Assembly: GCF_011065895.1 (NCBI RefSeq)
Contig: NZ_JAALCR010000045.1
Coordinates: forward strand, 1 to 37,849
DNA from: Paludisphaera rhizosphaerae
Lineage (GTDB): Bacteria; Planctomycetota; Planctomycetia; Isosphaerales; Isosphaeraceae
DNA: 37,849 nucleotides
Direction: 5' to 3'
The notes under the pieces are model-generated. The model ran no database searches. It saw only the letters and a list, made by a program, of their open reading frames with translations, and was not told the origin of the DNA. Shown in pieces: positions 267-22,139 of this stretch (its first letter is position 1; the number at the start of each line of letters is the position of its first letter). A program made the translations under genes and the position numbers.

Positions 267-486
267 GAAAATCGGTGTCGAAAATCGGTGTCAGTTCTAT
301 TTTCTGTCGAAAATCGGTGGACGGAAAAATGTGGAAAATCGGTGGACGGAAAAATGAACTGACACCGGTTTTCTCTGTCGAAAATCGGTGGACGGAAAAA
401 AGAACTGACACCGGTTTTCCTTCGGACCGACGGGCGAGGAAGACGGAAAAAAGAACTGACACCGGTTTTCCTGACACCGGTTTTCC
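267..486. repeat. RAYT-type hairpin repeat cluster, both orientations (BIME-like)
   Basis: The cluster contains one complete plus-strand unit (280-304) and three complete minus-strand units (348-373, 394-420, 445-471), with partial units at 267-279 and 472-486. All share the core CGGTGTCAGTTC. Short inverted arms bracket the core: GAAAAT/ATTTTC at 280-304, and GGAAAA/TTTTCC at 394-420 and 445-471. Plus-strand half units (GAAAATCGGTG at 309, 334 and 380) are joined head to head to minus-strand units. For example, 380-390 pairs with 409-419 with one mismatch, so paired units form larger palindromes, as in mosaic REP elements. The same core recurs in the array before the transposase at 1975. Short frames crossing the cluster simply translate the repeat. 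Confidence 0.85.
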
Positions 487-993
487 TCGAGCACAATCCC
501 GAGAGTAGTGAGGCTTGGATCTACATCGCCATGATCCACCGTATGTCCCGCTACTGCATGCCGGAGCGCAATCGAGACGAGGACCTGCTCAGGCGACCTC
601 CAAAACGCCTGAAAACATGATTTCTAGACGGCCTCTGAGCTTCCATGGCACGGTCATCTGTGCAACCGATACTTCGGTGGAAAAGCAGTATCTTTCCGAA
701 ATTTTCCCTTACTGTGGAGTGTTTCTGGGATATTATGTTCACTGAATTCACGAGTTCGGACGCCGGTAGAGCGGACGTTCTGCGCGTGTCGCGATGACGC
801 GGAGAAGGAGCGGTACGATCGGGAGTGGGGCGACGAGGCCCGGGGTGGGTTGGAGGACGCGTCGCGGGTCATTGTTGGCGTCCGCTCCGCGCGAATGAAT
901 CGGTCGATCGGCGCTTTGGCCCATGCCGCATCGAGCCTTTACCCCCCACGGCTCCGGTCGGAACCTTGTATCGCACAACAGGAGAGCGTCACC
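487..993. other. Gene-free stretch before the 994 gene
   Basis: Beyond the repeats I recognise nothing coding. The stretch from about 600 to 745 is less GC-rich than its surroundings. TATTAT at 731-736 could be a -10 element, but I find no good -35 box, so no promoter is called. The ribosome binding site of the next gene is GGAG at 981-984. Confidence 0.5.
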
Positions 994-1677
994 ATGTCTC
1001 ATCCGACGCAACGTCCCGGGCGCCTGTTTGGTCTCGGATCGCGGTGGCCGAGTTCTGCGTCTCGGGACTCGCGACGACAGCGAAACAGCATCCCGCTTGA
1101 GGTGGCGCCGCTCGAATCCCGCTGCCTGCTGTCGGTCGACATGGCCGGTTTGCAGCGGTCGGGCATGATCGCGCATCGCATGGACGTGGCGGATCAGATC
1201 AGCGAGATCCGGAGCCTGGCCGCCGGGCCGGCCAAGAGGGCAGCGCTCAAGGCGCTCCTCGGCAGGGATACGGTGAAGGAGCCGTTCTACTGGTCGACCA
1301 GGAACGTCTCGATACTCAGGCATCCCTCGGGCGCGGCCGCGGTGGAGGTCTCGTATTGGAGTTCCGGGAGGAATCCCTGGGACGCGATTTATGGGTACAG
1401 CGGGTTCTCGCTGCAGGCGGGGGCGACATACGAGATCCAATACGGCGCGTCGCAGATCCTCACGGACAACAAGAATCGGACCTTCCGGATCAATCTCCAG
1501 GAGGCGGACGCGCCGTTCAAGTCGTTCTTCATGGACGATGCGGTGGGAGACGGCCGGGTTTATACGCAGAAGGTCACGATTCCGTACACGGTCCCGGATG
1601 CGTCGCTGCAGTTCCAGTTCGGCGGCGGCGGTCACCGGGAGTTCGTCTTCACGGCGTTCAGCATCCGTAAGGTCTGA
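994..1677 (+). CDS. Secreted/surface protein of unknown function with LEPR-like motif
   Basis: The product is 227 residues and I do not recognise its function. The start at 994 has GGAG about nine bases upstream; the frame is open further upstream but that part has no protein-like character. Near residues 31-42 the sequence VAPLESRCLLS resembles the LE-x-R-x-LL motif at the N-terminus of many exported planctomycete proteins, and the same kind of motif occurs in the proteins at 33053 and 35534. The preceding segment is rich in Arg and Ser, not a classical hydrophobic signal peptide. From about residue 80 to the end, aromatic- and glycine-rich alternating strands (YWS, FGGGGH, FSIRKV) suggest a beta-sandwich, perhaps carbohydrate-binding-like, but this is a guess. 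The gene sits between the two RAYT repeat clusters and could be a passenger or a bystander. Confidence 0.7.
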   Translation: MSHPTQRPGRLFGLGSRWPSSASRDSRRQRNSIPLEVAPLESRCLLSVDMAGLQRSGMIAHRMDVADQISEIRSLAAGPAKRAALKALLGRDTVKEPFYWSTRNVSILRHPSGAAAVEVSYWSSGRNPWDAIYGYSGFSLQAGATYEIQYGASQILTDNKNRTFRINLQEADAPFKSFFMDDAVGDGRVYTQKVTIPYTVPDASLQFQFGGGGHREFVFTAFSIRKV

Positions 1678-1752
1678 GCGCGGCCGAGAAGGAGGCTGAC
1701 GTTCCGGTCGAGTTTGTGGAACCCGGCGCGGTCTCAGCTTGCTCTATCTGAC

Positions 1753-1960
1753 GAAATTCGGTGTCAGTTCTATTTCCTTGGACGAAATTCGGTGTCAGTT
1801 CTATTTCCTTGCGTCGTGACCGAGTTGGAAATTCGGTGTCAGTTCTATTTCCTTGCGTCGTGGAAATTCGGTGTCAGTTCTATTTCCTTGCGTCGTGACC
1901 GAGTTGGTGTGGACGAAATTCGGTGTCAGTTCTATTTCCTTGCGTCGTGACCGAGTTGGT
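1753..1960 (+). repeat. RAYT-adjacent direct repeat array, five units
   Basis: Five same-orientation copies start at 1753, 1784, 1827, 1862 and 1915. Each consists of inverted arms around the conserved core TCGGTGTCAGTTCT. The arms are GGAAAT/ATTTCC in copies three and four (1827-1852, 1862-1887) and GAAAT/ATTTC in the others. A tail containing gcgtcgtgaccgagttgg follows copies two, four and five in full; it is cut short after copy three and almost absent after copy one. Uneven tail truncation suggests repeated duplication and recombination. The array ends 15 bases before the transposase start at 1975, the usual place for repeats handled by a RAYT. Confidence 0.85.
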
Positions 1961-1974
1961 GAGACGTTGAAGGC

Positions 1975-2664
1975 ATGGGACGATCGCTCCGACTGGTGGA
2001 GGACGGCCTGGTCTATCACGCGATCAATCGCGGCAACAACCGCGACGTCGTCTTCCTGGACGACGACGATCATGCGGCGTTCCTCGACGCCCTGGGGCGG
2101 ACGCAGGCGAAGTATCCGTTTCGGTTGTTCGGCTACTGCCTGATGTCGAACCACTTTCACCTCCTCCTGAGGCCGGAGGAGGGCGTCTCGATCAGTCGAG
2201 TGCTCCAGTCGCTGACCGTGACGCATACCTGGCGATATCACCGACGACGGCGGACGTCAGGGCATGTCTGGCAAGGTCGATTCAAGAGCCCCGTCGTGCA
2301 GGACGAGGGCCATCTACTGACCGTCCTCCGCTACATCGAGGCTAATCCGCTGCGTGCCGGGATGGTTGAGGATCCAACGACCTACCGCTGGTCGAGCGCC
2401 CCGGCCCACGCGACGGGCCTCGCCAACCCGCTGCTCGCGCCGTTCCCCGAGTGGGACGCCCTCGGACGCGACGAACGCTCGCGACAATCGGCCTGGCGTC
2501 GCAAGCTGCGCGGATCTCAGCCCGAGGCCGAGATCCTGGCGATCCGCACCTCGCTCCGTACCGGCCTCCCCTTCGGCGAACCGGAATGGGCCGACAGCCT
2601 CGCCGCCGCTCTCGGCCGAACGCCTCCCCGCCCTCGGGGTCGGCCGAGGAAGGCGGAGGAATGA
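1975..2664 (+). CDS. rayT: REP-associated tyrosine transposase (RAYT, Y1/HUH family)
   Basis: The product is 229 residues, normal for the family. RAYTs are single-domain HUH nucleases related to IS200/IS605 TnpA. They cut single-stranded DNA next to REP-type hairpins through a catalytic tyrosine and are thought to spread or maintain those repeats. Visible hallmarks are the N-terminal YHAINRGN segment (14-21), the HUH motif NHFHLLL with His60 and His62, GHVWQGRFKS (96-105), and RYIEANPLRAGMV (119-131) with Tyr120 the likely nucleophile. The C-terminus ends in a basic RPRGRPRK tail like an AT-hook. All catalytic residues are present, so the gene looks intact. It begins directly after five copies of a hairpin repeat whose core also occurs at 267-486. 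There is no strong ribosome binding site; translation may depend on the repeat leader. Confidence 0.92.
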   Translation: MGRSLRLVEDGLVYHAINRGNNRDVVFLDDDDHAAFLDALGRTQAKYPFRLFGYCLMSNHFHLLLRPEEGVSISRVLQSLTVTHTWRYHRRRRTSGHVWQGRFKSPVVQDEGHLLTVLRYIEANPLRAGMVEDPTTYRWSSAPAHATGLANPLLAPFPEWDALGRDERSRQSAWRRKLRGSQPEAEILAIRTSLRTGLPFGEPEWADSLAAALGRTPPRPRGRPRKAEE

Positions 2665-2953
2665 ATCGACGCCGAGTTTTGTGGATACCGAGACTTGTAC
2701 TGGACCCCCGCGTCGCCTTCCATTGGAACCCAGAGTAGCCCCCGGCCGTCGCTCCCGCTCGACTCATGAGCGTGCCGCCATCCAGGTTCCCCGGGTCGAG
2801 GTTCTCAATCGCGGCGATCTCGCTTCCTCTTGACATCCGGGGCGAGTCGGGGCATCTTGCCGAGTGGCACCACGGACGAGCCTGAAACCGATTTCCTCGC
2901 CTCGTCCAGGTCGCATACGACCCCATCGCCGGCCCTCATGGAGGAGAACGCCG
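2665..2953. other. Intergenic region after RAYT
   Basis: There is no recognisable gene, and no further copy of the CGGTGTCAGTTC repeat occurs on this side of the transposase. GGAGGAG at 2940-2946 is the ribosome binding site of the next small gene. Confidence 0.5.
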
Positions 2954-21907: not shown

Positions 21908-22042
21908 GAGCCGGCGCTCCCTCGTGGTCGAGGCGCCGGCCGGGCGTCCTGCCTCGGTCGTGGCGGCCTCGGTTCGGTTCCTTCCGATCGTCGCGCCCGA
22001 CTTGCGGGGGCCTGGGAGAGCCGGGGAGGTTCTCCCGCGCAC

Positions 22043-22139
22043 ATGAGGGTGATGCTTATGGCTGCTGCGTTCCCGCCCTGACCAGGTTCACAAGCCCCCA
22101 TTGCCCGGGTCCCCCCCGGCTCACCCGGACCCCCGCCGC
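22043..22139 (-). ncRNA. ffs: Signal recognition particle RNA, bacterial small (4.5S) type
   Basis: Read on the minus strand, the gene contains GTGAACCTGGTCAGG, then a GCG-GGAA-CGC hairpin cap, then GCAGCAGCCATAAGC. This is the conserved helix 8 of SRP RNA: the asymmetric and symmetric loops (CAGG / AGCAGCC) that bind the Ffh M domain, closed by a GGAA tetraloop. The cap stem is GCG/CGC where the common form is CC/GG, a compensated change. A 5' GC-rich stem region (ccgggt...acccgg) precedes it. The ends are approximate (about 10 bases either way). It lies directly upstream of dnaX on the same strand. Confidence 0.85.

Follow-up and report, generated by a model that had tools for sequence, protein, structure and literature searches.

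One-sided truncated repeats beside a TIRYT-like Y1 HUH transposase in Paludisphaera rhizosphaerae

The transposase and its described relatives

Two groups of described elements come closest to the locus reported here. In the REP/REPtron systems of E. coli and S. maltophilia, short multi-copy repeats occur in direct and inverted order, beside and away from the gene of an HUH transposase, TnpAREP (RAYT). According to the passages of PMC8266576 drawn on here, the E. coli enzyme recognizes single-stranded REP and not inverted REP, HUH cleavage leaves a free 3' hydroxyl, and the known cuts fall 5' or 3' of the REP structure, not in its loop. The second group is the TIRYT/TIRtron class, whose terminal repeats carry the motif GGGGWSAS and in which some TIR families are repeated genome-wide as singles, dimers or groups, as stated in the corresponding sections of Di Nocera et al. 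2013 (PMC3733652). According to Quentin et al. 2018 (PMC6006769), TIRYT is probably equivalent to subclass 2.1, the second largest group there, for which the sections consulted report that no REP-like sequences were found. These sections give NHVH or NH[YF]H as the HUH signature, Y---NP as that of class 2, and YIELNP or Y[IV]HLNP as those of subclass 2.1.

We analyzed a stretch of 37,849 nucleotides of P. rhizosphaerae (contig NZ_JAALCR010000045.1, forward strand), hereafter the window. Short repeats lie in two arrays near its start, and an intact transposase ORF begins 35 nt past the last unit of the second array:

1975..2664, plus strand: intact Y1 HUH transposase (RAYT, TIRYT / subclass 2.1 type), 229 aa, with an HUH core, three predicted C-terminal helices and a PRGRPRK AT-hook-like tail

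The protein matched Pfam Y1_Tnp (4.7e-14) and NCBIfam REP_Tyr_transpos (80.5 bits, cut-off 80), and all 18 sequences of an alignment that includes it matched the latter at E<=0.001. The profile of this alignment matched 4er8, a structure of E. coli TnpAREP in complex with a REP hairpin (2.3e-11), which was also the best PDB match of the predicted fold (pLDDT 91.4; 7.2e-9). The window protein carries NHFH and YIEANP, one residue off YIELNP, and has the class 2 signature; among the 18 aligned sequences, H60 and H62 are invariant and Y120 is kept in at least 90%. Its C-terminal extension has no HTH match in Pfam, and its score against Pfam AT_hook (15.1 bits) is below the cut-off of 17.4. A GRP-type tail near the C terminus was found in 92 of 96 distinct complete relatives, 67 of which carry the strict form P.GRP[RK]. 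Such a tail, together with A/T-rich arms beside the repeat core, suggests contact with the minor groove, which would be an alternative reason for the composition of the arms.

The genome holds one intact gene and one fragment of the window transposase type. Counted over the wider family, it has two fragments and one other intact REP-type gene (L209, G000:C5:324934-325404), which is of a different type and has different flanking palindromes, like CCATGGCCACGCAAGCGTGGCCATGG. L038 (G000:C20:143334-143774), a transposase of the window gene's class that has decayed and contains in-frame stops, lies on a contig without the core described below. The HUH fold is shared with the IS200/IS605 elements (IS608, ISDra2), but with one intact gene and a fragment of its type, and one intact gene of another type, the window gene is not multi-copy as an IS would be.

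Repeat units in the window and beside related genes

The initial annotation had described nine full units in two clusters around a constant core, and we indeed counted nine exact copies of CGGTGTCAGTTC in the window. Four of these lie in the first cluster (286-464), one on the plus and three on the minus strand, and five in the second (1759-1932), all on the plus strand. The units and their incomplete copies are:

267..279, plus strand: 3'-truncated (5'-only) copy GAAAATCGGTGTC, abutting the full unit 280..304 and having an identical 5' arm
280..304, plus strand: full unit GAAAAT-CGGTGTCAGTTC-TATTTTC, core at 286-297
309..319, plus strand: 5'-only copy GAAAATCGGTG, read from the sequence, with no continuation into a plus-strand unit
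334-344, plus strand: 5'-only stub leading into an inverted full unit, not a plus-strand unit
345..373, minus strand: full inverted unit, core at 356-367
380-390, plus strand: 5'-only stub leading into an inverted full unit, not a plus-strand unit
394..420, minus strand: full inverted unit, core at 402-413
445..471, minus strand: full inverted unit, core at 453-464
471..486, minus strand: 5'-only copy GGAAAACCGGTGTCAG, sharing base 471 with the next full minus-strand unit and having an identical 5' arm
1753..1777, plus strand: full unit GAAATT-CGGTGTCAGTTC-TATTTCC, array 2 copy 1
1784..1808, plus strand: array 2 copy 2
1828..1852, plus strand: array 2 copy 3
1863..1887, plus strand: array 2 copy 4
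1915..1939, plus strand: array 2 copy 5, the closest of the array to the transposase gene
2663..2681, minus strand: possible degenerate inverted unit over the stop codon, seen by eye and weak, with an automatic inverted-repeat score equal to background

The stubs at 309-319, 334-344 and 380-390 all break after CGGTG. The window gene has no clear right-hand inverted unit, the degenerate candidate scoring 8. Between the arrays lies an ORF of 275 aa (850-1677, plus strand) without a Pfam or NCBIfam match. An Rfam scan of 91 kb returned a single match, unrelated to the repeats: a bacterial small SRP RNA gene at window positions 22020-22117 on the minus strand (63.7 bits).

For the class as a whole, we took the best 80 of at least 577 related loci, found with the alignment of the window and 17 relatives and drawn from named genomes, plus 26 from the family and the window. 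These 106 loci represent 99 distinct genes, on which the flank, motif and tail counts are based. Near-gene units consist of an A-rich arm, GG[GT]G[AT]CA, variable bases and a T-rich arm. In 74 of 97 loci, GKGWCA was present in the 130 nt before the start, compared with 4 of 97 for the reversed motif. In a set of 74 distinct units, the distance to the start was 46-57 nt in 52, and the motif took the form GTGTCA in 16. The two flanks contained an inverted match scoring at least 15 in 60 of 96 distinct loci, some of them in other phyla (controls: shuffled 0/96, same-strand flanks 7/96). Of 74 distinct upstream units, 28 carried the -35-like box TTGAC at their 3' edge, against 0 of 41 downstream units (P=5e-7); the upstream unit therefore probably overlaps the promoter of the gene in a good part of the class. 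A conserved loop, in place of a conserved stem, had initially been regarded as a peculiarity of this locus. The fixed middle is real, but the TIRYT-like relatives examined commonly have such a long invariant middle flanked by A/T-rich arms.

Judged from their sequences, the window repeats and transposase fit TIRYT / subclass 2.1 of the REP-associated transposases. They share with TIRYTs and TIRtrons, as characterized in the sections used here, a Y1 HUH protein with a C-terminal extension, non-GTAG terminal repeats with a GGGGWSAS-like motif, and TIR families repeated in the genome. They differ in the window core, GGTGTCAG, which matches GGGGWSAS at 7 of 8 positions (T for G), and in a right-hand TIR that is not recognizable, whereas the 60 relatives above have inverted repeats on both sides; moreover, the parts of PMC3733652 and PMC6006769 drawn on here make no mention of one-sided stubs or an AT-hook-like tail. 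With the REPtrons of PMC8266576, in the passages cited, the window shares a related transposase and the same arrangement of short multi-copy repeats. Unlike REPs, its repeats lack a GTAG/GTGG foot, the bases 5' of the 5' arm being variable (GACG, GTCG, CAGG and others); their conserved part is the middle, not the foot or stem, and their stems are weak. Overall, the repeat family is real, is rightly tied to an HUH transposase, and belongs to a known, little-studied class.

Spread of the core and pairing of the arms

A search of the whole genome (8.05 Mb, 110 contigs) recovered 53 exact cores, compared with one for the reversed pattern. The cores fall into 14 clusters on six contigs, four of the 14 with a single exact core, and 13 of the 14 do not directly adjoin the transposase gene. 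From these counts, the core is neither a chance occurrence nor confined to the window. Across 45 genomes of the family, own included, 30 contain at least one copy and eight contain four or more (53, 24, 14, 7, 6, 5, 4 and 4), with at most 3 for the reversed-pattern control in any genome. Of the five sister genomes in the genus, four (G029-G032) lack the core and the fifth carries 3 copies, so the expansion in our genome looks recent. A 66%-identical relative carries an identical core 42 nt from its gene. Some genomes carry several cores and yet lack a close transposase: in G044, with 24 cores, the best match has 41% identity and is 74% complete, and in G003, G034, G009 and G020 (7, 6, 4 and 4 cores) the best matches are at 38-46%.

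We also inspected the surroundings of the clusters. Thirteen ORFs of at least 120 aa overlap them, and none of the ten that were scanned had a Pfam match. A search for empty sites recovered no insertion site: at L033, the alignment with two sister genomes (82%) was confined to the right flank, and L035 gave nothing useful. The recurrence of CCGT-ending arms in G000, G001 and G003 speaks against the idea that 5' arms were captured from the insertion site of each cluster. A 226-base repeat at L033:3217-3442 has about ten copies of 97-99% in the genome; among the matches listed, a shorter part (query 364-488) occurs in all six genus genomes, and the whole query gives 76 to 125 matches per genus genome, both strands counted. 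By eye, a short element composed of GGATT[AG]CTCCC and a GC-rich hairpin adjoins four clusters (L032:6419, L033:3552, and L036 near 3270 and 5970), and in two (L033 and L036 near 3270) the arm of the cluster plus CGG also stands directly before it.

The initial annotation had further proposed that the arms differ yet remain complementary, under selection for a stem. Inside the window, the arms are indeed complementary over about 5-6 bp, as they are at two other loci of the genome (L031, L034). Across the genome, the 5' arms take forms such as GAAAAT, GAAATT, GAAAAC, AATAAT, GGTAAT, GATATT, GGGACAGG, GGGCCGT, GGCCGT, CACCCGT and GCCCCAT; most 3' arms are still variants of NNTTTTCC. In other clusters, complementarity is lost, as in the pairs GGGACAGG/ATTTTTCC, GGGCCGT/ATTTTCC, CACCCGT/CGTTTTC and GCCCCAT/TACCTTCC. 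Copies whose arms vary without pairing, which the initial annotation had itself named as evidence against its proposal, are present in the genome. Selection for compensating arms was not borne out either. Real arm pairs summed to 66 against a mean of 71.3 for swapped pairs, and 9022 of 10000 swaps reached or exceeded the real value; when junction copies were left out, the sum was 64 against 66.2 (15685 of 20000). In the covariation analysis of 16 distinct units, obtained after dropping 4 of 20 distinct rows whose post-core bases are those of the next copy, 65.6% of cells were paired compared with 64.1% after shuffling; 149 of 500 shuffles reached the observed level, and double changes were not enriched. 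The arms do not covary in this genome. Those in the window are near-interchangeable A-run/T-run variants, so the window alone could not show covariation, and complementary arms of this kind at one locus should not be taken for it. What stands of the proposed recognition of a hairpin by an HUH transposase is the link to such an enzyme, given the intact Y1 gene downstream, the 4er8 match and the units beside genes of relatives; what falls is the selection for a compensating stem.

In 20 core-bearing family stretches, hand-chosen from a larger number and including some that look like lone, possibly chance cores, the swap test leaned to pairing (102 vs 91.0, a value reached in 312 of 20000 swaps); pooled with our genome, the result was not significant (166 vs 158.7; 2615 of 20000). 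At the class level, 74 distinct units picked by motif and nearness to the gene only gave 370 against 341.1 (sd 8.6; 19 of 20000), one unit per core type (18 units) gave 93 against 82.6 (369 of 20000), and within one core type 44 of 20000 swaps were as high, with kinship among the loci controlled only in part. An earlier class-level test (407 vs 363.2, 0 of 20000) was discarded as biased, its units having been picked partly by pairing. Arms across different transposases thus pair above swapped controls, which supports a weak fold-back at the class level, where the hairpin may matter. Three window units were predicted to fold weakly as DNA, at -1.1 to -2.4 kcal/mol, and in the array-2 unit the two arms take no part in the most favorable fold. 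More stable folds, down to -6.3 kcal/mol, were obtained for some units that belong to other transposases of the class. With weak folds, several unpaired clusters and no covariation, the repeats do not have the stable, fully paired basal stem of a REP.

One-sided truncation and its possible origin

Many of the tandem copies are incomplete, with one organization: a 5' arm and the start of the core are followed by the 5' arm of the next copy, and the 3' side is lost. Our genome contains 19 5'-only copies and no 3'-only copy, and the 20 stretches of family genomes contain 15 and none, giving 34 against 0 in core-bearing stretches by two detection rules that are not mirror images. A symmetric test, with a 12-base probe for each half and mirror-image rules, was applied to 130 TIR ends of the wider class. 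It detected 20 5'-only copies, 19 whole copies and no 3'-only copy, distributed as 17 ends against 0; of the 20, all but one (L099) precede another 5' arm. In a separate listing, one of 18 5'-only copies was a full unit with a base change, and its three apparent 3' orphans proved on inspection to be full units with base changes or an overlap, leaving no genuine 3'-only copy.

The breaks are also concentrated. Among the 34 core-family events, 22 fall after 7-9 core bases (CGGTGTC, then A, then G), 8 after the full core and 4 elsewhere, so the commonest break lies just past GGTGTC(A/G); 22 or more at 7-9 would be rare under a flat spread over 5-12 (P=0.0012). The breakpoints thus spread over 7-9 and 12 and do not mark one bond, microhomology blurring the exact position. 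The wider class yielded 34 tandem pairs, 10 of them whole and the other 24 partial. Of these partial pairs, which need at least 5 nt for detection and are not all independent (four come from L129 and three from L102), 20 retain between 5 and 7 nt counted from the start of the motif, and 14 of the 20 retain exactly 6 (GGGGACA^ or equivalent). A match of the breaks to the CA/CT dinucleotides known for TnpAREP was not upheld, the commonest wider-class break following A. In array 1 of the window, 5'-only copies occur in both orientations within 220 bp (267-279 on the plus and 471-486 on the minus strand), and the asymmetry hence tracks the strand of the unit itself, not the direction of the fork. 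One-sided truncation in both orientations at one locus suggests that a 3' end arises within the unit on one particular strand.

We lean, by a modest degree of belief, towards the explanation that the adjoining TIRYT-kind Y1 HUH transposase has these repeats as its recognition (terminal-repeat) family, amplified in a REP-like manner, and that the arrays arose via 3' ends within the core CGGTGTCAGTTC. The transposase would most likely read the fixed middle GGTGTCA(G) in single-stranded DNA, while the A-rich and T-rich arms would provide a weak stem and/or a binding site for the C-terminal part and the AT-hook-like tail. A 3' end would arise inside the core, directly past GGTGTC/A/G and on the strand of the unit itself. 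Its simplest source would be a nick by the transposase, the adjoining enzyme belonging to a type that works on a single strand. Re-extension of this end from just upstream of the 5' arm would leave arm+GGTGTC(A) stubs before full copies, and the arrays would grow. Several observations count against this explanation: the lack of a clear right-hand unit, the T in the core where GGGGWSAS has G, the core-rich genomes without a close transposase, the TnpAREP cuts outside the REP structure, the AT_hook score below its cut-off, the scatter of the breakpoints and the partial dependence among truncated copies, and the empty-site search that yielded no insertion site. Rolling-circle origins are nicked in a conserved loop, and their stem may vary. 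A wider reading resembles this loop nicking: TIRYT transposases in general may cut within the repeat middle, after GKGWC(A) and not beside the hairpin, with the freed 3' end re-priming just upstream, so that arrays would be built through arm+GKGWCA stubs, and with the AT-hook-like tail holding the A/T-rich arms. We advance it tentatively and think it rather unlikely to hold.

Other processes could generate or maintain such copies. A weak palindrome might make the polymerase slip, leaving partial tandem copies with no role for the transposase; the copies are tandem, weak stems exist, and many junctions resemble short microhomologies (by eye, with no statistics). Slippage should depend on the nascent strand, however, and across arrays that face either way it would be expected to yield 3'-only copies as well as 5'-only ones, whereas 3'-only copies number zero and opposite-facing 5'-only copies lie within 220 bp in the window. 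We regard slippage as possible but unlikely. It is somewhat more doubtful still that the units are double-strand operators, in which the arm plus GKGWCA forms a half-site for the C-terminal helices and the AT-hook-like tail and stubs are selected as extra sites. TTGAC following upstream but not downstream units, the GRP tail in nearly all relatives and the three predicted helices speak for this reading, and the sub-threshold AT-hook match against it; autoregulation, moreover, cannot account for the 13 of 14 clusters that lie away from the gene. That the extra sites repress the gene or hold two ends together is, as a detail of the operator reading, of the same doubtful standing.

The view of the initial annotation, a hairpin family whose stems are kept complementary by compensating changes around a sequence-specific loop, we consider improbable. 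The complementary arms in the window, L031 and L034 agree with it, as do the class-level pairing and the family stretches taken alone, but our genome shows no covariation, the pooled test does not reach significance, non-complementary clusters are present and folding is weak. Least credible of all, and very improbable, is a tandem-repeat family unrelated to the transposase and its neighbor by coincidence. The clusters away from the gene and the sister genomes G029-G032 without the core would suit such a family. At 60 of 96 distinct related loci, however, equivalent units lie on both sides of the gene, which makes coincidence unlikely, and the 66%-identical relative has the same core beside its own gene.

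The spread of REP-type repeats is described as poorly understood in the abstract of PMC8266576, and a search of the open-access literature found no description of the present repeats or of one-sided stubs. The stubs are what is new here and the part most worth following up. Present in several members of the class, they offer a prediction, at the level of sequence, of the site and strand on which the enzyme would act.
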